Positions 5,070 through 57,978 of a DNA stretch of 64,000 nucleotides are shown here, in pieces. The notes below the pieces were generated by a model that was given only the letters and a program-made list of their open reading frames with translations, had not been told where the DNA came from and did no database searches. Positions within the stretch are counted from its first letter, which is position 1, and each line of letters starts with the position of its first letter. This stretch comes from Thermotoga sp. Ku-13t (GTDB taxonomy: Bacteria; Thermotogota; Thermotogae; Thermotogales; DSM-5069): contig NZ_LNFY01000001.1 in assembly GCF_011057685.1 (NCBI RefSeq), forward strand, positions 496,001-560,000, given 5' to 3'. Both the position numbers and the translations under genes were made by a program.

Positions 5070-6944
5070 TCACTTCTTTCCAGTTGGTTTCAGGAATGGC
5101 AGCATGTACTTGAAGTTCGGCCAGTGTGGATAAGGCTGTGCGTACATGTTCTCAGCACCCGGGAAGTTCGTCCAGTAGTATTCATCCCAGGCGATGACGC
5201 CAGGATAGTTGAACGTTGGTATCGTTGGCATCTTTTCGACCAGGATCTTGAGAGCTTCGATACCGAGCTCGATCAACTTCTCAGTATCGTTCCAGTCAGT
5301 CACCTGCAGTTCTTCGATGATCTTGTCCATTCTCGGATCGGTGAAGCGCGCGTAGTTGCCCCACGGTGCACCTTCACCAAGTTCCGGCACGTACTCAGAA
5401 TAGTACGGCGTGAGTGTTCTGGACAGATCCGGATGACCACCCCACGGCTCTGCAGCAGGCCAATCTGTCGATACTTCGAACTCACCCTGTGCGTTCTGTG
5501 CAATTTCCAGGGACTGTGCAACGACGTCGATACCGAACTTCATCCACGCCTGAACAGCAGCGAAGGCGTTCCTCTCAGCTGGCCCAGCAGGGTTGTTACC
5601 GGTGTTGATCGTGATCTTCCAGAGTTCACCATTGGGCAGGTGCCATTTTCCTTGCGCGTCTCTGTAGAAACCGTTCTTCTTGAGGAGCTTCTCCGCTACG
5701 TCGGGTGCGTACTTCCACCAGCCGGGTCCGAAGATCTTCTTGATCTGCTCAGGATCGTCGGGCACAGGATAACCTCTCTTCTTCGCGTACTCTGCGAGCC
5801 TCAGACCTGCAGTTGGATCGTAAGGTTTGAACTTTTCACCGTTTCCGAGATCGAGTTCGAAGTTCATGAGCCACTCTTCCATGCGCTTGTAGTACCACTC
5901 GTAGTATGCCGGCACGAGTGGGATGTGTATCGGAGACAATGTAACGGCTCCGTCGAACGCGTTGGCAGCGTATTCTACGATATCGATCGCCAGCGTGAGT
6001 GCCCATCTGATCTCGGGGTTATTGAAGGGTTCTATTGCGTTGTTCAAGTGCAGACCAGTGACGCACGGGTCGATGTTCACGGTCCACGGGAAGTCTTTTC
6101 TCCACGCACGTGCGGTCTTGACCCTCCTGAGAACCACTTGCAGGGCCTCGTAGGAGAAGTCAGAGATGTCGAGGTTGTGCTGCGCCATGGCAAGCACTCT
6201 TTTTTCTGCAGCGCTGTAGAACACCATCAACACGTACTTCGGCTGCGGCATACCGTACAGCATACCGGTGGGTGTTCTCTGCCAGTCATCTCTCCTCTGC
6301 CACAGTATCCAGTATCCACCCGGATCGTAAGAGTGGAGCACGTACGGACCAGTGCCGACGGGTGGGTTGAAGTTGAAGCTCAGAGGATCCTCAACCTTTT
6401 CGAATATGTGTTTCGGAAGAGGTCTGAACGCTCCCCATCTGTCGACGAAGTTGATGTGGAACCTCGAATTCGGTTTCTCAAGTTTGATGAGGACCGTGTA
6501 GTCGTCGATCTTGACCATCTCTTTCACCTGCTGCATCTGGGTGTGATAGCCGAAACCTGATGTTTTCTTGGACAGCTCGATTGAATAAATCAAATCATCT
6601 GCGGTGAACGGCACACCATCGCTCCAGTAGACGCCCTTTCTTAGCTTGATCGTCAGTTCGGTGAAGTCTGAGTTGTAGATTGGAGGTTCTGCCGCCAGGG
6701 CGTTGATGACCTCTCCGACCGCGTACTCCATGCACCACAGCGGTTCGAGCAACAGGTTTTGAATTCCCCTGTCGTTCCAGACCCACGTCGCCCAGATGTT
6801 GAAGTTTCCAGGGTTCGCAGCCCTTCCCGTCAGCCACTCAGCGATCAGAGTTTCGTTCCTTGGAATGCCTGGAGGCAACTCTTGCGAGAAGGAAAGACCC
6901 GCGAACAATGCCAGCACTAGACCAATGAGGAGAACCTTTTTCAT
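5070..6944 (-). CDS. Family 5 extracellular solute-binding protein of the ABC importer
   Basis: This is the secreted or lipid-free periplasmic receptor of the importer. A signal peptide (MKKVLLIGLVLALFAGLSFS) precedes a mature chain with SBP_bac_5 features such as KLRKGVYWSDGVPFTADDLIYS and VGTGPYVLHSY. At 624 aa it is of the large type used for oligosaccharides and peptides. The order binding protein, two permeases, two ATPases, GH3, next to a GH10 xylanase, matches the xylo-oligosaccharide locus I recall from Thermotoga maritima (TM0071-TM0076), so xylo-oligosaccharides are the best guess for the ligand. A GGGGGTGA ribosome site precedes the ATG. Confidence 0.92.
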   Translation of the reverse strand: MKKVLLIGLVLALFAGLSFSQELPPGIPRNETLIAEWLTGRAANPGNFNIWATWVWNDRGIQNLLLEPLWCMEYAVGEVINALAAEPPIYNSDFTELTIKLRKGVYWSDGVPFTADDLIYSIELSKKTSGFGYHTQMQQVKEMVKIDDYTVLIKLEKPNSRFHINFVDRWGAFRPLPKHIFEKVEDPLSFNFNPPVGTGPYVLHSYDPGGYWILWQRRDDWQRTPTGMLYGMPQPKYVLMVFYSAAEKRVLAMAQHNLDISDFSYEALQVVLRRVKTARAWRKDFPWTVNIDPCVTGLHLNNAIEPFNNPEIRWALTLAIDIVEYAANAFDGAVTLSPIHIPLVPAYYEWYYKRMEEWLMNFELDLGNGEKFKPYDPTAGLRLAEYAKKRGYPVPDDPEQIKKIFGPGWWKYAPDVAEKLLKKNGFYRDAQGKWHLPNGELWKITINTGNNPAGPAERNAFAAVQAWMKFGIDVVAQSLEIAQNAQGEFEVSTDWPAAEPWGGHPDLSRTLTPYYSEYVPELGEGAPWGNYARFTDPRMDKIIEELQVTDWNDTEKLIELGIEALKILVEKMPTIPTFNYPGVIAWDEYYWTNFPGAENMYAQPYPHWPNFKYMLPFLKPTGKK

Positions 6945-50220: not shown

Positions 50221-50430
50221 TCAGAGCAAGTTGAAGAACTCGTTCGTGGTCGTTTCGACTATCGCCGCTCTGTCTTTGACGTAGCCAGACGGGATCGCTC
50301 CGAGACTTATCAACATGTCCATCGCTTGAGACACCTGTTCGCTCGTGAGATCCAGCTTCGGGTTGGGTACGGTGATCCTGCGTCTTTTTCCATCAGTCTG
50401 GTTCACAAAGTCTAGAAAGAGCCTTTTCAT
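50221..50430 (-). CDS. DUF2922-like small protein, module 3
   Basis: 69 aa with the same layout as the module 1 gene: KRLFLDFVNQTDGKRRRIT, DLTSEQVSQAMDMLISLGAI, and the shared tail RAAIVETTTNEFFNLL. ATG after AAAGGAGGTG. It is the last gene of a two-gene operon; the other half of the four-gene set (81-residue protein and sigma-like protein) lies 5 kb further along the same strand at 44581-45179. Confidence 0.82.
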   Translation of the reverse strand: MKRLFLDFVNQTDGKRRRITVPNPKLDLTSEQVSQAMDMLISLGAIPSGYVKDRAAIVETTTNEFFNLL

Positions 50431-50445
50431 ACATCACACCTCCTT

Positions 50446-50640
50446 TTAGACAACCTGGACGGTGGTGATCAGATAAGCTCCCTGAACCGTGTAGTTCGTG
50501 AGCGAATCGATGACGCTGGTGATCTGCTCAGCCTGAGCCATCGTGACGGAATCTTCCACGGCGAAGCTGGCGCGTCTGAGGATGGGTCTGCCCGATTCGT
50601 TCACCTCGCCCGTGTTGTAAACGATCCTGAGCTGTTTCAT
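50446..50640 (-). CDS. DUF1659-like small protein, module 3
   Basis: 64 aa, ATG at 50640 after GGGAGGTG. It shares KQLRIVYNTGE, ...RR..F.VEDSV and SLTNYTVQGAYLIT with the module 1 copy. Family of unknown function. Confidence 0.82.
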   Translation of the reverse strand: MKQLRIVYNTGEVNESGRPILRRASFAVEDSVTMAQAEQITSVIDSLTNYTVQGAYLITTVQVV

Positions 50641-50661
50641 AACAGCACCTCCCTTCGGTTT

Positions 50662-50697
50662 TGGGAGCGCTCCCACTTAATAGATACGGAGGTAGGC
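50662..50697 (-). promoter_or_regulatory. Composite upstream element of small-gene module 3
   Basis: ATACGGAGGTA (50684-50694) is a weaker version of the ATACGAAAGTA half of the module 1 and 2 palindromes. Nine bases further, TGGGAGCGCTCCCA (50662-50675) is a perfect 14-bp palindrome. Order and spacing agree with modules 1 and 2. Confidence 0.65.
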
Positions 50698-50734: not shown

Positions 50735-50763
50735 TTGACACGCTCGAAGCCCCGTGGTATCTT
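50735..50763 (+). promoter_or_regulatory. Promoter of the his operon
   Basis: TTGACA (perfect -35, 50735-50740), 17 bases, TATCTT (50758-50763). The start of transcription would be near 50770, just before the leader peptide. Confidence 0.75.
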
Positions 50764-50785
50764 ATAACCAAACAGGTGAATGCAT

Positions 50786-50878
50786 ATGGGTTTGGTTGAA
50801 AGGTTCTTCAACAGTGTATTGAACCTCGTTCACCATCACGTGTTCGACCCGGTAGCTTCTCCACCGGGTGTTGCGTGA
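50786..50878 (+). CDS. hisL: his operon leader peptide
   Basis: A 30-codon frame, MGLVERFFNSVLNLV then HHH (codons 16-18: CAC CAT CAC at 50831-50839) and VFDPVASPPGVA, with an AGGTGA ribosome site seven bases before the ATG. Three neighbouring His codons in front of a terminator are the hallmark of ribosome-mediated attenuation in his operons. The assignment rests on this arrangement, not on sequence similarity. Confidence 0.75.
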   Translation: MGLVERFFNSVLNLVHHHVFDPVASPPGVA

Positions 50879-50937
50879 TGGTGGAACGTTGAGAGGCTAC
50901 CGGGTCACATCCGAAAGGGTGTGACCCTTTTCTTTTT
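50828..50937 (+). promoter_or_regulatory. his operon attenuator (antiterminator and terminator)
   Basis: Terminator: GGGTCACA (50902-50909) pairs with TGTGACCC (50920-50927), then TTTTCTTTTT. Antiterminator: GACCCGGTAGC (50846-50856) pairs perfectly over 11 bp with GCTACCGGGTC (50896-50906) and takes away the 5' arm of the terminator. The same upstream arm can instead pair locally with ACCGGGT (50863-50869), enclosed by a longer helix between the His codon region (50828-50840) and 50874-50887 (one bulged G). A ribosome stalled at the His codons would block the outer helix and favour the antiterminator. Confidence 0.78.
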
Positions 50938-50951
50938 AAGGAGGGGGTTCG

Positions 50952-51797
50952 TTGAAAAAGCTCGACAGATTGTTTCAGAACTTCACAGAGGCGTGCGGGC
51001 AGAACGGGTTCGAACTGTTTCTGAGTCCGGAGACGGAGCCGATGAAGGATCTGTCCCGGATAGGGAACGATACCGTCTTCTTTCAGGCGAGGAACGGGCA
51101 GCTGTTCAAACTCAGAAACGATTACACCGCCTCGATCGTCGAGTTCTTCAACAGGAACGTGCCCGATTCTCTCAGGGTCTGGTACTCGGGCTTCGTGTAC
51201 CGTTACGATCCGCTGGGACAGATTCAGCCCGTCTTCCAGATCGGAATCGAGACGATCCCGTACGGTTCGCTCCAAGACAGCCTCCTGGTTCTGAAGATAC
51301 TTGTCGAACCGATTCTTTCCTGTCTGACGGGCGGAGTGCTCGTCGAGATAGGCGATTCCAGGGTAATAGAAAGGTGCGTTCGGCATGTGCCCAAGAGCTT
51401 CAGAAAAAAGCTTTTCGAACTCATAGACAGAAAGGACATCTCCGAGCTGGAACTGTTCGCTTTCCTGAACGGTCTGGATCTGTCCGAGGTGCTGAAGCTC
51501 GTCGAAGCGAGCTTCACGAAAAGGAGTGTGGAGCAGCTGGAATACTTCGAACTCGAACCCTCGATCGAAAAAGAAATCGTACAGGTGGTGGATTTTCTCT
51601 CGAACTTTCCCGGGGTGCGCGTCGAGATTGACTTCTCCATAGCGAGAACCGTGGAAGAGTACGACGGACTCACGTTCACGATCTTCGATCTGAGAGAACC
51701 CGCGCTGATCGCCGCCGGTGGCAGGTACAGCGTGAACGAGAAAGTGCTCGGTGTGGGCGGAACGATTTTTCTGGAGGAGAGAGCATGGTCAAGGTAG
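50952..51797 (+). CDS. hisZ: ATP phosphoribosyltransferase regulatory subunit
   Basis: This is a histidyl-tRNA-synthetase-like protein that has lost tRNA charging and activates the short HisG. Class II synthetase-like pieces are visible: FQARNGQLFKLRNDYTASIVEFF, RVWYSGFVYRYDPLGQIQPVFQIGIE (motif 2 region), and a C-terminal AAGGRYSVNEKVLGVGG. At 281 aa it is shorter than many HisZ (about 320-400). TTG start after GGAGGGGG. It is the first gene after the attenuator and overlaps hisG by 13 bases. Confidence 0.9.
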   Translation: MKKLDRLFQNFTEACGQNGFELFLSPETEPMKDLSRIGNDTVFFQARNGQLFKLRNDYTASIVEFFNRNVPDSLRVWYSGFVYRYDPLGQIQPVFQIGIETIPYGSLQDSLLVLKILVEPILSCLTGGVLVEIGDSRVIERCVRHVPKSFRKKLFELIDRKDISELELFAFLNGLDLSEVLKLVEASFTKRSVEQLEYFELEPSIEKEIVQVVDFLSNFPGVRVEIDFSIARTVEEYDGLTFTIFDLREPALIAAGGRYSVNEKVLGVGGTIFLEERAWSR

Positions 51798-52420
51798 CGC
51801 TCGCGAAAGGGAGGCTGGAAGAGGAAGCTTTCGCCTTTCTCGAAAGGTGTGGCTTTCAGTTCAAAGAAAAGAGTGAGAGGTCGCTGATCGTCACAGACAT
51901 CGAGGAGAGTTTGAAACTCTTCATCGTGAAACCTTCGGACGTTCCAACGTACGTGTCCAGCGGTGTGGCGGACGTGGGCATCTGCGGCACAGATTCGATC
52001 GTCGAATCGCAGCTCAAACTGATCCAGCCGATGAAGCTCCCCTTCGGGAGGGCGAGGATGGTCGTGGCGGGTTTCGAAGGTTTCAGGATGAAGAACGGCA
52101 CCGTGACAGTGGCGACGAAGTTTCCCGTGAGCGCGAAAATGTATTTCGATTCGAAAGGTGTGGATGTGAAGATCGTCAAGCTGAACGGCTCTGTCGAACT
52201 CGCACCGCTTGTGGGTCTGGCACCATTGATAGTGGACATCGTTCAAACTGGAAGGACGCTGAGAGAAAACGGGCTCTCAATTCTGGACGAGATCTATCCC
52301 ATCAACGCCATTGTGGCACTGAACGACGTTTCTTACAGGATCAAGCGCGAAGAGATCCTGAGCTTTTTGGAAAGGCTCGAAAGGGGGTGCGGACGTGAAG
52401 ATCTTGATAGAACCCGCTGA
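51785..52420 (+). CDS. hisG: ATP phosphoribosyltransferase, short form
   Basis: Catalyses the first step of histidine synthesis, joining ATP and PRPP. LALAKGRL-type start (VKVALAKGRLEEEAFAF), ADVGICGTDSIVE, and the PRPP loop VDIVQTGRTLRENGL are clear. At 211 aa it is the short form without the C-terminal His-sensing domain, which agrees with the presence of HisZ just upstream. Confidence 0.96.
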   Translation: MVKVALAKGRLEEEAFAFLERCGFQFKEKSERSLIVTDIEESLKLFIVKPSDVPTYVSSGVADVGICGTDSIVESQLKLIQPMKLPFGRARMVVAGFEGFRMKNGTVTVATKFPVSAKMYFDSKGVDVKIVKLNGSVELAPLVGLAPLIVDIVQTGRTLRENGLSILDEIYPINAIVALNDVSYRIKREEILSFLERLERGCGREDLDRTR

Positions 52421-53684
52421 ACAGCAACTGCTTGAGATACTCGAAGAGAGAAGGCTGGACTTCGCGAACATCGAAAAGACAGTGAGAGAAATTGTGGAGG
52501 ACGTGAAGCACAACGGGCAGGCCGCGCTGGAAAAGTACATCGCGCTGTACGAGAAATGCGCCCTGAAGGGTGAAAGGATCCTGATCAGTGAGGAAGAACT
52601 CGATGCCGTGAAGGTCGAGGAAGAGTTCAAGGATCTGTGCGAAAAGTTCATCGAAAAACTCGAAAGGTTCCACTCGATGCAGCTGCAGGCTTCCATGTGG
52701 AATCTGACTCCGCACGGTTCTTTTGTGGGATGTCTGGTGAGACCGATCGAAAGCGTCGCGATCTATGTGCCAGCTGGCAGGAGGGTGTACTTCACGACGT
52801 TGCTCATGTGCGCGGTTCCGGCGAAGATAGCGGGGGTCGAAAGGATCGTCGTGGTGTGCCCACCGAACGAAGATGGAAAGGTTCCAGATCGAATACTGTA
52901 TCTGTGCAGAAGGTTGAACATTCGAGAGATCTACAAAATCGGTGGAGCACACGCGATCGCCGCTCTGGCTTACGGCACGAGCATCGTGAAGAAGGTCGAC
53001 AAGATCGTCGGACCGGGGAACGCGTACGTGTCGTGCGCGAAAAAACTCGTGTTTGGAGATTGCGGGATCGATTCCGTGGCAGGACCGACGGAGCTTCTCA
53101 TCGTCGCCGACTCCACCGCGAAGCCCGCGTTCGTGGCGGCGGATATGCTCGCCCAGGCGGAGCACGACGAGATGGCCATGAGCGCGCTCGTCACGGACGA
53201 TGAAAACCTGCTGGATGGAGTGCTCGAAGAACTCGCAAGACAGCTCAACTCTTTGGGCGAGCCGAACAGGTCCGTGGCGAAGGTTTCGCTCGAGAAAAAC
53301 GGCCTCGCGGTACTGGTGAGAGATCTGAAAGACGCGATCGAGGTGGTGAACCTGCTGGCTCCGGAACATCTCGAACTGTTCGTGGAAGATCCTTTCTCCT
53401 GGCTCGGTAGGGTGAAGAACGCAGGTTCCACCTTCGTTGGCAACAGCTCCGCCGAGGCGTTCGGTGATTACGGTGTTGGACCGAACCACGTGCTTCCCAC
53501 GTTGCAGAACGCCAGGTTCACTTCTGGTTTGAGCGTTCAGGACTTTTTGAAGAAGATCTTCGTGACCCTGGTGAGCGAAGAAGAGGTGAAAAAGCAGGGT
53601 GAGTTCTATGTGAAGCTGGCGAGGCTCGAAGGTTTCGAAGCGCACGCACGCTCGATCGAAGTGAGAATGGAGGGAGCAAGGTGA
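52395..53684 (+). CDS. hisD: Histidinol dehydrogenase
   Basis: Last two oxidation steps of histidine synthesis, zinc-dependent. Recognisable segments: RPIESVAIYVPAGRRVYFTTLLM, GAHAIAALAYGT, VDKIVGPGNAYV, AGPTELLIVAD, DMLAQAEHDEMA and GDYGVGPNHVLPT. 429 aa, full length. GTG start; overlaps hisG by 26 bases. Confidence 0.96.
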   Translation: MKILIEPAEQQLLEILEERRLDFANIEKTVREIVEDVKHNGQAALEKYIALYEKCALKGERILISEEELDAVKVEEEFKDLCEKFIEKLERFHSMQLQASMWNLTPHGSFVGCLVRPIESVAIYVPAGRRVYFTTLLMCAVPAKIAGVERIVVVCPPNEDGKVPDRILYLCRRLNIREIYKIGGAHAIAALAYGTSIVKKVDKIVGPGNAYVSCAKKLVFGDCGIDSVAGPTELLIVADSTAKPAFVAADMLAQAEHDEMAMSALVTDDENLLDGVLEELARQLNSLGEPNRSVAKVSLEKNGLAVLVRDLKDAIEVVNLLAPEHLELFVEDPFSWLGRVKNAGSTFVGNSSAEAFGDYGVGPNHVLPTLQNARFTSGLSVQDFLKKIFVTLVSEEEVKKQGEFYVKLARLEGFEAHARSIEVRMEGAR

Positions 53685-54715
53685 GTTTCTGTTCGATCGT
53701 TGAAGAGATCAGAAGGAATGTCGAAGCGTACCAATCTGAACCGAGGACTCCCACGTACCTTGCGCTGAACGAAAATCCTTATCCTTTTCCGGAAGAACTG
53801 GTGCGGGAGTGTTTCGAACGGATCGACGTGAGCAGGTTGCCGACCTATGTCGATTCGCCGTCCGAAGAGTTGTTGAATGAACTGGTCGACTACGTTTCCA
53901 TCGGAGGGTGGAAGGCGCAGAGAGGACAAATCAGCGTCGGAAACGGTGCCGATGAAATCATCTACGTGCTTTTGAGCATGTTCAAAGACCTCTCCATCTA
54001 CGTCTTTCCACCGACCTACAGCTGTTACGAAATCTTCGCCAGCGCCGTCGGGGTGAAACTGAACAGGGTGCCGCTGGCTGGCGAGAGGATCGATGTCGAG
54101 AGATTGAAAGATCTCAACGAGAACTGCGTGGTTTTCTTACCGAATCCAAACAATCCGACGGGACATCTCTTCTCGGACGAAGAGATCTTCTGGCTTTTAG
54201 AAAAAGGTGCGCTGCTCGTTCTCGACGAGGCTTACTACGAATTCTCTGGCAAAACCTATGCACCTTTGATAGACAATTATTCCAACCTGATCGTCGTTCG
54301 AACCTTCTCCAAAGCCTTCGGTCTGGCCTCACAGAGGGTAGGTTACCTCATAGCGAATCCCGCGCTGATCGACGCATACAACAGGATTCGACTGCCTTAC
54401 AACGTGAGCTATCTGGGACAGCTCTTCGCGACGGTCGCGCTGAAGAACAGACGCATCTTCCAGGAGAGGGTGGAAAACATCGTCGAAGAGAGAGAAAGGC
54501 TCAAGAGTGCGTTACGGAAACTTGGCTTCAACGTGAGCGATTCGAGGGCGAACTTCGTTTTCGTCTATCTGAGCCAGAAAGAAACTGAGAGGATCTATCG
54601 AGCGCTACTGGAATGCGGAATAACTGTCAGAATGACTCAGTGTGGACTTCGTATCACTGTTGGACAGGCTCACCAGAACGATCTTCTGATCGAAACGATG
54701 GAGAGGCTGATATGA
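53681..54715 (+). CDS. hisC: Histidinol-phosphate aminotransferase
   Basis: PLP-dependent fold-type I aminotransferase of 344 aa. LNENPYPFPEELV, VGNGADEIIYVLL, FLPNPNNPTGHLF, VLDEAYYEF and the PLP lysine in TFSKAFGLASQRVGY are visible. The GTG start overlaps the hisD stop by four bases. Confidence 0.95.
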   Translation: MSFCSIVEEIRRNVEAYQSEPRTPTYLALNENPYPFPEELVRECFERIDVSRLPTYVDSPSEELLNELVDYVSIGGWKAQRGQISVGNGADEIIYVLLSMFKDLSIYVFPPTYSCYEIFASAVGVKLNRVPLAGERIDVERLKDLNENCVVFLPNPNNPTGHLFSDEEIFWLLEKGALLVLDEAYYEFSGKTYAPLIDNYSNLIVVRTFSKAFGLASQRVGYLIANPALIDAYNRIRLPYNVSYLGQLFATVALKNRRIFQERVENIVEERERLKSALRKLGFNVSDSRANFVFVYLSQKETERIYRALLECGITVRMTQCGLRITVGQAHQNDLLIETMERLI

Positions 54716-55308
54716 AAGTGGAAAGAGAAGGAAATAGTTGCTCTGTCGAACGAGAGACGTCGGAAACCAGGATCAAGCTTAAACTCATCAGCAATGGAAA
54801 AGGAATCTTCTTCGGTTCGACCAGGATCGGTTTTCTCGATCACATGCTGAACACTTTTTGCAGATTTTCAACGTTGTCTCTGGATATAGAACTGTTCGAC
54901 GCAGATCTCCAGGTGGACATGCACCATGGGGTTGAAGATCTTGCGATCACGCTGGGTGCGGCGTTCAGAGAAATCTTCGATTATGGTCGTACTGCGCGCT
55001 TCTCACACGCCATCGTCCCTATGGACGAAGCACTCACACTGTGCTCGGTGGATCTCTCTGGAAGGAGTTTCCTCAACTTCCAGGTATCTTTCGAAACCGA
55101 ACGTATTGGGGAGTTTCCCACAGAGTTGATAGAGGAATTCTTCAAAAGTTTTGTTAACAACGCGAAGATCACACTGCACGTTGTGAAACTGGCGGGGAAA
55201 AACTCCCACCACATCGCCGAATCCGTCTTCAAAGCTTTTGCCATCGCTGTGAAAAACGCAATTCAGCAGGTTGATTCCGTTCAGAGCACGAAAGGGGTGA
55301 TAGATTGA
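54712..55308 (+). CDS. hisB: Imidazoleglycerol-phosphate dehydratase
   Basis: Manganese enzyme of 198 aa. Metal-binding histidine motifs: GFLDHMLNTFCRF, DMHHGVEDLAITLG and KNSHHIAESVFKAFA. It is the single-function form, not fused to a phosphatase. The ATG overlaps the hisC stop (ATGA). Several usual residues at the N-terminus are changed, but the catalytic core is complete. Confidence 0.94.
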   Translation: MKVEREGNSCSVERETSETRIKLKLISNGKGIFFGSTRIGFLDHMLNTFCRFSTLSLDIELFDADLQVDMHHGVEDLAITLGAAFREIFDYGRTARFSHAIVPMDEALTLCSVDLSGRSFLNFQVSFETERIGEFPTELIEEFFKSFVNNAKITLHVVKLAGKNSHHIAESVFKAFAIAVKNAIQQVDSVQSTKGVID

Positions 55309-55919
55309 ACATCGCGATCGTTTCCTGCGTACCCGGAAACGTTATGAACCTGTACAGGGCGATCGTCAGGCTGGATGAAAATCTCTGCGTGGAGCTGCTG
55401 GAAAGGCCTCAAAAAAAGTTCTTCAGTGCGATCTTTTTACCAGGGGTTGGGCATTTCGAAGAAGCGATGAAGAGTTTGAAGGAAAGCCAGATGGATGAAT
55501 TCATATTGCGTCACTGGCGAGCCGGCAGTCTCATCGTCGGTGTGTGCCTGGGTATGCAGTTGCTGTTCGAGGAGAGTGAGGAGAGCACGACTAACAGAAC
55601 GGTCAGGGGATTGGGCTTGCTCGAAGGTCGCGTGGTACGTTTGAGGGCAAGCATGTTGCCTCATGTTGGCTGGAACGTTGTCAAGTTTTCCAGAGAAATT
55701 TTCAGCGATCTGAATGGAAGATACTTCTACTTCGTTCATTCTTACAGAGCAGTCTGTGAACAGCAAATCGTTGCTGGTGAGTGTGAGTACGAGGAAGTTT
55801 TCCCTGCGGTAGTGATGAAAGACAATGTCATCGGCGTACAGTTCCATCCCGAGAAGAGTCACACGGTGGGTAAGGTATTTCTGAAGAAGGTGATAGAATG
55901 CGCGTTCTACCAGCGATAG
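55305..55919 (+). CDS. hisH: Imidazole glycerol phosphate synthase, glutaminase subunit
   Basis: Class I glutamine amidotransferase of 204 aa that feeds ammonia to HisF. Nucleophile Cys in VGVCLGMQLLFEES; His and Glu in IGVQFHPEKSH; oxyanion region in PGVGHFEEAM. TTG start overlapping the hisB stop. Confidence 0.95.
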   Translation: MNIAIVSCVPGNVMNLYRAIVRLDENLCVELLERPQKKFFSAIFLPGVGHFEEAMKSLKESQMDEFILRHWRAGSLIVGVCLGMQLLFEESEESTTNRTVRGLGLLEGRVVRLRASMLPHVGWNVVKFSREIFSDLNGRYFYFVHSYRAVCEQQIVAGECEYEEVFPAVVMKDNVIGVQFHPEKSHTVGKVFLKKVIECAFYQR

Positions 55920-56626
55920 ATCTGTATCAGGGAAGAGTTGTGAGGATGGAAAAGGGTCGAAAAGAACGCTGCCACATCTACGATTTCGATCCGGTTGAGC
56001 TAACGATGCACTTTGTGGAAGAAGGTTTCAAGCTGGTGCACCTGATCGATCTGTCGGCAGCCATGGATGGTTCCGACGAGAACAGGGAGATACTCAAAAG
56101 ACTTTCAGCGAAAGGTCTGGCCAACCACGTGCAGATCGGGGGTGGTATCAGAACGATCGAGCGAGCACTGGAATTGTTAAAGATGGGATTTCAAAGGCAG
56201 TTGCTCAGTTCGGCGCTGATCGAGCAACCATACTTTTTGAACGAACTGCTGGACAGAGGCATCGATGTGGTGTTCTCACTCGATACATCCTCTTCGGGTG
56301 TGTGCCTGGCCGGCTGGTCGGCGGCACGGAACATCGAAGTGGTAGGATTTTTGAAACTGCTCAGGTCTCTGGGATTGAAAGAGATCGTCCACACGGATGT
56401 GGAAGCCGACGGTTCGTTGCTGGGAAGGGATTTGAAACTCAGCAGGGCAATCGCTGTTGAAACAGGTTTGAACGTTGTCGTGGCGGGAGGCATCGCAAGT
56501 GCTCACGATCTGGAATTGGTGAGACAGCTGAATCGCGAAGTTTCCAACATTGTTGGTGTCATCGTGGGAAGGGCTTTCTACGAGGGAAAGATCAGCATCA
56601 AGGAGATGAAAGATTATGCTGGCTAA
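55898..56626 (+). CDS. hisA: ProFAR isomerase
   Basis: TIM-barrel isomerase of 242 aa. [17 protein letters not shown] holds the first catalytic Asp, [11 protein letters not shown] and VVAGGIAS the phosphate-binding loops, and [12 protein letters not shown] the second Asp. Overlaps hisH by 22 bases. Confidence 0.95.
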
Positions 56627-57386
56627 GAGGATCATAGCCTGTCTGGACGTAAAGGATGGCGTTGTGGTTAAAGGCAAGCACTTCGAAGACCTTGTCTACG
56701 GAGGTGATCCTGTCGAGCTGGCTGAAAGATATTCCCGTCAATGCATCGATGAGATAGTGTTTCTGGACATCACCGCTTCGTTCGAATCCAGAAAAACAAT
56801 GATAGATCTTGTCAAGAAAGTTGCGGAACGCGTAGATGTGCCGTTCACTGTCGGGGGCGGTATAAGGGACCTGGAGACTGCCATGGAGCTGATCTACGCC
56901 GGGGCAGACAAGGTGAGCGTGAATACCGCGGCGGTGGAAAATCCACGGCTTGTAGAGAAGATCGCAACCAGGTTCGGGTCGCAGGCTGTTGTAGTGGCAA
57001 TCGACACAAAGAGAACAGAAATCGGTTTTGAAGTGTTTGTGATGTCTGGAAAGAAGGCCACAGGTATCAGGCTCGAAGACTGGCTGGTCGAGATCCAGCA
57101 ACGCGGTGCGGGAGAAATCCTTTTGACGAGCATAGACACAGATGGCACGAAAGATGGGTTCGACATCGAATTGATCCGCAGGGCTCGACAGATTTCAAAG
57201 CTCCCGCTCATCGCATCTGGTGGGGCTGGGAGACAGCAACATTTTCTCGAAGCATTCAGAGCCGGTGCCGACGCCGCACTTGGAGCATCGGTTTTCCACT
57301 TCGGTTTGCTCGACGTGATACAGCTTAAGAGATACCTTTTCGAAAATGGTGTGAACGTCAGACTGGATTGCGTGGAGGTAGATTGA
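56616..57386 (+). CDS. hisF: Imidazole glycerol phosphate synthase, cyclase subunit
   Basis: TIM-barrel partner of HisH, 256 aa. [16 protein letters not shown] with the catalytic Asp, [24 protein letters not shown] with the second Asp, and [11 protein letters not shown] are visible. Overlaps hisA by 11 bases. Confidence 0.96.
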
Positions 57387-57387
57387 A

Positions 57388-57978
57388 GTGCTCAGACCCG
57401 TTGTAGTTCAGGAAGTCCATACGAAGGAGATTCTCATGCTCGCCTACACAAACGAAGAAGCGCTCCAATTGACGAAAGAAACTGGCTTTGCGCACTTCTA
57501 CTCAAGATCGAGAAAAAGGATCTGGAAAAAAGGGGAGCAATCAGGCAACACAATGCGTGTGGTCCAGATCCTTGAAGACTGTGACAGCGATGCGCTGCTC
57601 TATCTTGTGGATTTCCCCCACGGAAAGGTGGCGTGCCACACGGGAAGGAGGAGCTGTTTCTTCAACGTTGTGCACGGAGACGATGCCGAGGAGAATGGCC
57701 TTTCGTTTCTCGAAAAACTGTATGGCATCGTCGAGGACAGGAAGAAGAACCCGGTTCAGGGTTCCTACACGGCGAAGCTGTTCGAAGAGGGACTGGATAA
57801 GATTTTGAAGAAATTCGGAGAGGAAGCGATAGAGGTGATCCTGGCGGCGAAGCACCAAACGAAGGAGAGATTGATCGAAGAACTGGCGGATTTGATGTAC
57901 CACCTCACTGTGCTTTTGAGCGCCGAAGAAATCCGCTGGAGCGACGTGGTGAGAGAGCTAAAGAGAAGATCCAGGTGA
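57388..57978 (+). CDS. hisI: Bifunctional phosphoribosyl-AMP cyclohydrolase / phosphoribosyl-ATP pyrophosphatase
   Basis: HisIE fusion of 196 aa. The cyclohydrolase half has EILMLAYTNEEAL, FYSRSRKRIWKKGEQSGN and the zinc motif ACHTGRRSCF. The pyrophosphatase half (from about residue 105) has LEKLYGIVEDRKKN and LDKILKKFGEEAIEVILAAK. GTG start one base after the hisF stop. The histidinol-phosphate phosphatase gene is not in this window. Confidence 0.95.
   Translation: MLRPVVVQEVHTKEILMLAYTNEEALQLTKETGFAHFYSRSRKRIWKKGEQSGNTMRVVQILEDCDSDALLYLVDFPHGKVACHTGRRSCFFNVVHGDDAEENGLSFLEKLYGIVEDRKKNPVQGSYTAKLFEEGLDKILKKFGEEAIEVILAAKHQTKERLIEELADLMYHLTVLLSAEEIRWSDVVRELKRRSR

Follow-up and report, generated by a model that had tools for sequence, protein, structure and literature searches.

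The window analysed here is a 64,000-nucleotide stretch of a 2.08 Mb genome that belongs to Pseudothermotoga (Thermotogota). It contains a full his operon on the + strand, in the order hisZ-G-D-C-B-H-A-F-IE. The first gene, hisZ (ATP phosphoribosyltransferase regulatory subunit; 50952–51797), has a TTG start, and hisG, hisD, hisC, hisB, hisH, hisA, hisF and hisIE follow as overlapping or closely spaced genes (51785–57978, + strand). The closest match of HisZ is T. maritima HisZ (1usy, E = 1.6e-57); its best profile is TIGR00443, at a score below the cut-off of that profile. HisG scores above its NCBIfam cut-off (TIGR00070). The names of hisD to hisIE come from reading the translations and from a gene order that is conserved in relatives.

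A sigma-70-type promoter with an extended −10 TG (TTGACA-17-TATCTT; 10/12 matches) lies upstream of the operon at 50735–50763 (+ strand). The genes 5′ of this promoter (50221–50430 and 50446–50676) are both on the minus strand, which leaves it as the closest promoter of the his operon; for the same reason, the terminator described below cannot derive from an upstream transcript. A predicted leader peptide ORF (MGLVERFFNSVLNLVHHHVFDPVASPPGVA; 50786–50878, + strand) ends with the stop codon TGA at 50876–50878 and is preceded by a putative ribosome binding site, GGTGA (50775–50779, + strand), at a position where relatives retain AGGTGA or GGAG. If translation starts at ATG 50786, the ORF has 30 codons and its spacing from GGTGA is 6; a second in-frame ATG (50780) immediately abuts the GGTGA. 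Three consecutive His codons (CAC CAT CAC; 50831–50839, + strand) would serve as the sensor. A 30-codon leader peptide with a run of three His codons had been proposed in an earlier note on this DNA, and the proposal is borne out: most relatives have 3 or 4 His codons, and the His run is conserved in homologous leaders 5′ of hisZ.

Three helices compete within the leader RNA, all on the + strand. The outer helix, identified by folding and covariation, joins the His-codon arm (arm 1, 50831–50840) to arm 1′ (50874–50883), which contains the leader stop codon; it is the helix that the earlier note had expected the His-codon region to form. It encloses an inner stem (ACCCGGU/ACCGGGU), and outer helix and inner stem together have a folding energy of −32.8 kcal/mol (z = −5.8). 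The antiterminator is a 16-bp helix with one U·G pair between arm 2 (50846–50861) and arm 3 (50891–50906), both supported by arm energies and covariation. The first part of arm 2 also pairs locally with 50863–50869 to form the inner stem, and arm 2 is thereby common to the outer hairpin and the antiterminator. The intrinsic terminator (50902–50937; −21.7 kcal/mol, z = −5.7) consists of an 11-bp stem (50902–50912/50917–50927) with a GAAA loop, followed by TTTTCTTTTT, and 50902–50906 is common to arm 3 and the 5′ arm of the terminator. Each helix has a z near −5.7, with 0/200 shuffles equally stable, and the entire leader has a folding z of −5.0. The overlap of antiterminator and terminator and the strength of the terminator were thus correctly recognised before; the lengths were not, since the antiterminator had been given as 11 bp, five fewer than found here, and the terminator stem as 8 bp.

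We regard as confirmed the observation that 50735–50937 holds a complete ribosome-mediated his attenuator. A predicted ORF with cognate codons and a putative ribosome site of its own, both conserved, is followed by an exclusive antiterminator that starts just 3′ of the sensor codons and overlaps an intrinsic terminator; the terminator lies between the promoter and the first structural gene, and the operon under control synthesises the sensed amino acid.

The arms of the antiterminator coevolve. Duplex energies between arm 2 and arm 3 averaged −31 kcal/mol within the same genome and −10 to −28 kcal/mol (mostly −12 to −20) across seven lineages, the milder cross-lineage values (−25 to −28) being those of the Thermotoga arm 2 with GC-rich partners. 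The strongest partner of each lineage's arm 3 was the arm 2 of that lineage, except in family f10 and its relative G054, which have partners in common. A MAFFT alignment of all Thermotogales leaders shifts the Thermotoga arm 3 by one bulged base; pairs were therefore counted on explicit arms, with this base taken out beforehand. Among 12 Pseudothermotoga and Thermotoga leaders, 189 of the 192 antiterminator cells were paired, and 6 of the 16 pairs carried Watson-Crick double substitutions (3 of these vary inside Pseudothermotoga), a covariation signal that stems from a small number of independent events, chiefly the Pseudothermotoga/Thermotoga split and three within Pseudothermotoga. For the 7 distinct rows, 97.3% of cells were paired compared with 90.5% in shuffles (0/500), and sliding the arms as a control lowered pairing to 32–57% of cells. 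The terminating conformation, counted in 15 leaders, was 95.7% paired compared with 87.5% in shuffles (0/500), with 7 pairs doubly changed. In these leaders the terminator had 100% of cells paired and three doubly changed pairs, and the outer helix (helix 2 of the count) had 85% of cells paired and all four of its pairs doubly changed. The earlier note had suggested looking for conservation and covariation of the pairing regions in other Thermotogota, and both the arm energies and the doubly substituted pairs show them.

These parts suggest the following switch. Transcription would start near 50770, and a ribosome would translate the leader ORF behind RNA polymerase. Under a shortage of charged His-tRNA, the ribosome is predicted to stall at 50831–50839 and cover arm 1, which would block the outer helix (1:1′); the emerging arm 3 could then pair with arm 2, occupying the 5′ arm of the terminator and allowing readthrough into hisZ. 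When His is abundant, the ribosome would pass through arm 2 as arm 3 emerges, and the terminator (3:4) would form. If the leader is not translated, 1:1′ and the inner stem would capture arm 2 first, again favouring the terminator. From the arrangement of the parts we infer this response to histidine together with its timing, a pause after the outer hairpin, the positions of ribosome and polymerase, and the masking of arm 2 by a moving ribosome.

Folding of the nascent RNA up to the 5′ arm of the terminator gave an arm 2 that held 5 of the 11 terminator-arm bases when the ribosome was stalled at the first His codon, and 0 of 11 when it was at the stop codon. The folding model predicted antitermination for a stall at the first His codon, less for the second and none for the third, because arm 2 then falls under a footprint of ~14 nt. 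With the stop codon 15 nt past arm 2, a ribosome resting there would leave most of arm 2 uncovered, so masking must occur during passage. Equilibrium folding of the nascent RNA without a ribosome also yielded 2:3; the outcome predicted without translation therefore needs 1:1′ to form first. For the finished leader, equilibrium folding favoured the terminator in most ribosome positions. Because the terminator wins at equilibrium here, as it does in E. coli hisL, the switch must be kinetic and decided during transcription. Equilibrium folding was rejected as a test of the switch; it is uninformative, as the E. coli hisL control behaves alike.

hisG is present in 34 of 103 Thermotogota genomes. 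A leader ORF with a His run, together with a strong terminator, was found 5′ of hisZ in families f1, f2 (two species), f3, f5, f7 and f10; among the his loci mapped, it was absent from genome G057 and family f11. The C-terminus of the peptide varies along with the RNA helix (DPVASPPGV, GPAVSPPGV, APGVTPPG, HTWRGR), as expected if selection acts on the RNA and not on the peptide. In the his operon of f11, a promoter, a small hairpin (CTATCCCCCCTTGGATAG) and a terminator precede hisZ (L024, ~6000–6080; L022, ~5990–6075; hisG orientation), and these two leaders contain no His ORF ahead of hisZ. In the his leaders of f10 (L026–L036) the arm occurs a third time (CATACATGGC, GCCATGTATG or CATACAAGGC), giving an extra alternative helix that is absent from the window. 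In L009 (G060, contig C10) the his leader occurs twice, flanking a run of N, which is probably an assembly artefact.

Leaders of this kind were also sought by a scan that required a Shine-Dalgarno sequence (SD), an ORF of 8–60 codons, at least 3 His in 4 codons and a terminator within 190 nt. Applied to 21 Thermotogota loci in both orientations, the scan returned the expected leaders only, with zero off-target hits; it overlooks several f10 leaders, in which the ribosome site is non-canonical. It returned 0 of 78 in non-Thermotogota hisG loci (Firmicutes and other), a negative control derived from a HisG scan of named genomes whose hits were mostly Firmicutes, with two Thermotogota names. An Rfam search of the related loci gave no family at gathering score, and for the window it gave a chance match only; the RF00514 His_leader covariance model was unmatched in the window stretch and in three related his loci.

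In G090, a T. maritima-like genome matching MSB8 in size, the his leader is intact (MKMWDAIMKMFFGEHHHHCYGPAVSPPGV) and a tnpB/OrfB_IS605 gene separates the attenuator from hisZ (L019). In G093 (L018) the his leader sits at the end of one contig; hisZ is on another, which begins within the same tnpB gene, directly 5′ of hisZ, an arrangement consistent with the same insertion as in G090. With tnpB intervening, his expression in these two genomes may have escaped attenuation control. The presence of tnpB between attenuator and hisZ in a genome that matches MSB8 in size is also a possible reason why the attenuator may have stayed unnoticed.

A covariance model built from fifteen his leaders (R1) was searched against the 103 genomes. 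It matched its own his leaders with E values of 1e-16 to 1e-27 and the one remaining Thermotoga his leader, that of G093, with 8e-26. It also matched weaker, non-his sites (E 1e-9 to 1e-2 per genome), many of which, on reading, are leader ORFs whose codon run suits the next gene. Arg-codon leaders lie before argG in f1, f5 and f9 and before argJ; none was found before argG in Thermotoga (f3), f4 or f11. The source genome has at least three such leaders (his, trp and arg). Its Arg leader, with a peptide ending in SIRRRAGCRRVQVVGT and a terminator, precedes argG (L144; G000:C11:152543–152601), and its Trp leader, with a peptide ending in VENNWWWCCPDSTG, an antiterminator and a terminator, precedes a TrpB-like gene, trpB2 (L164; G000:C1:838597–838614, minus strand). 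Trp (WWW) leaders before trpB2 are found in four Pseudothermotoga genomes (the source genome, G058, G059 and G060).

Possible methionine attenuators are seen as Met-codon leaders (MIM/MIMC) before metQ, a MetH-like gene (a relative of 1j6r) or another gene (L140, L143, L156, L157, L160, L166); in T. maritima-like genomes, searches with the gene that follows the Met leader gave neither a family nor a solved structure as a match. Lys-codon leaders before dapF, lysC and the gene of an amino acid binding protein in family f8 (L131, L135, L139) are likewise candidate lysine attenuators. To our knowledge, Arg, Lys and Met have rarely or never been described as sensors in leader-peptide transcription attenuation of biosynthetic genes. 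Less clear R1 sites include some with R/H or K/H codons ahead of amino acid transporters, one with V/I/L codons ahead of an amidohydrolase and one ahead of citrate synthase. At L125 (G043:C2:2067337), a leader-like ORF with Asn, Gln and Glu codons (NNQPEPKG) and a terminator are followed by citrate synthase. Six weak sites (L145, L147, L155, L158, L159, L163) were discarded, being plain terminators or lying in unrelated places.

Among the leaders examined, the distance from the first sensor base is 9–27 nt to the start of arm 2 and 63–95 nt to that of the terminator. The his, trp and other leaders of the set had no match in Rfam. The terminator cores look alike (GGCCAYATC), and kinship between the his leaders and those with Arg, Trp, Met or Lys codons was judged from these cores and from the R1 matches to several of them. 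We lean slightly towards a single transplantable design of common descent, fitted to matching biosynthesis or uptake genes by an exchange of the sensor codons (His, Arg, Trp, Met or Lys).

We read the window leader as a classical ribosome-mediated histidine transcription attenuator, one of a phylum-wide set with pathway-matched sensor codons, and put the probability of this reading at roughly 93%. A leader this highly structured could instead belong to another class of histidine- or tRNA-sensing RNA, such as a T-box or an aptamer riboswitch, with the short ORF incidental, and the hairpin and terminator that precede hisZ without a His ORF in f11 would fit such a class. We consider this very improbable given the absence of any Rfam family at gathering score in the related loci, T-box included, with the window giving the chance match only. 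Nor is there a conserved aptamer core; across lineages the helices stay paired while their sequence changes. Moreover, the His run is in frame with the ribosome site, and in the other leaders codon identity tracks the downstream pathway.

Just as small a chance attaches to a plain terminator or partial attenuator that fixes a constant basal level, with the other pairings as GC-rich by-products. Such an element would account for the strong stem (−21.7 kcal/mol) and for the dominance of the terminator conformation at equilibrium, but not for the coevolution of arms 2 and 3 over seven lineages or for the gap between the slid controls and the true arms (32–57% against 97% of cells); its location between the promoter and hisZ, on a strand without an upstream gene, also argues against it. 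Least probable of all is that a protein, either an RNA-binding antiterminator or a factor resembling a ribosomal protein, and not the ribosome, chooses the conformation. Protein-controlled antitermination occurs in other operons, and the short glp-like leaders of the source genome (see below) could belong to such a kind; control by a protein, however, leaves unexplained both the in-frame run of cognate codons and the swap of codons between operons of the same geometry.

Read as a ribosome-mediated attenuator, the window leader resembles hisL of E. coli and Salmonella (RF00514) in its His leader peptide, its alternative antiterminator and terminator hairpins, and its T-run before the first his gene. 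It differs from hisL in that leaders of the window type have 3–4 His codons instead of 7, in the lack of any sequence or covariance-model match, in preceding hisZ and not hisG, and in an ORF that crosses the antiterminator arm and ends inside the outer helix. T-box leaders also sense amino acid shortage and control a terminator; unlike the window leader, they sense uncharged tRNA directly, without translation, and the T-box model was unmatched here.

Proteobacteria, Actinobacteria and a few Firmicutes are known to use leader-peptide attenuation. Histidine leader attenuators in particular have been described in Firmicutes, in the Bacillus cereus group, Peptostreptococcaceae and Erysipelotrichales (PMC2965389, PMC9413887). 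These also have 3–5 consecutive His codons and attenuator, antiterminator and terminator hairpins, and in bacilli they too lie 5′ of hisZ (PMC2965389, PMC9413887), but they belong to another phylum; the scan found no such leader in the 78 Firmicutes hisG loci, which gives no hint of recent exchange with them. The leader-peptide attenuators described for amino acid operons of Actinobacteria (PMC1262725), compared here by description, are likewise ribosome-mediated, found outside the Proteobacteria and used for several amino acids, and differ in phylum. The earlier note had singled out the locus as a complete attenuator outside the Proteobacteria. The full set of parts is present, but attenuators of this kind were already described in Firmicutes (PMC2965389, PMC9413887) and Actinobacteria (PMC1262725), which limits the novelty to the phylum within the literature searched. 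The open literature searched contained no reports of leader peptides or attenuators in Thermotogota; since a broad survey of attenuation by Lopatovskaya et al. (2010) exists, considered here as it is cited in PMC4833913, priority for Thermotogota is not certain. The his leader adds to a known type of attenuator, and the multi-amino-acid family is the newer part.

If Thermotogota as a whole use attenuation as standard for five or more amino acids, it would account for the control of many operons in a phylum that serves as a model of thermophily. Its use as a standard device implies tight transcription-translation coupling there, and the shared design, if true, needs close coupling of ribosome and polymerase at 65–80 °C in a deep-branching phylum. 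B. subtilis lacks such coupling, according to work cited in PMC7819879, and this contrast makes coupling in Thermotogota directly testable.

The source genome also contains a short conserved leader of another kind, GTGGTAGAGA..GGAGAAAGCCACATCCC..GGGGTGTGGC-TTTTT, placed right after a promoter at G000:C1:203851–203944 (L148) and 209053–209128 (L146). The same leader occurs in G058, G060 and G100. Downstream frames point to glycerol 3-phosphate metabolism, and our guess is that a GlpP-type antiterminator acts on it.
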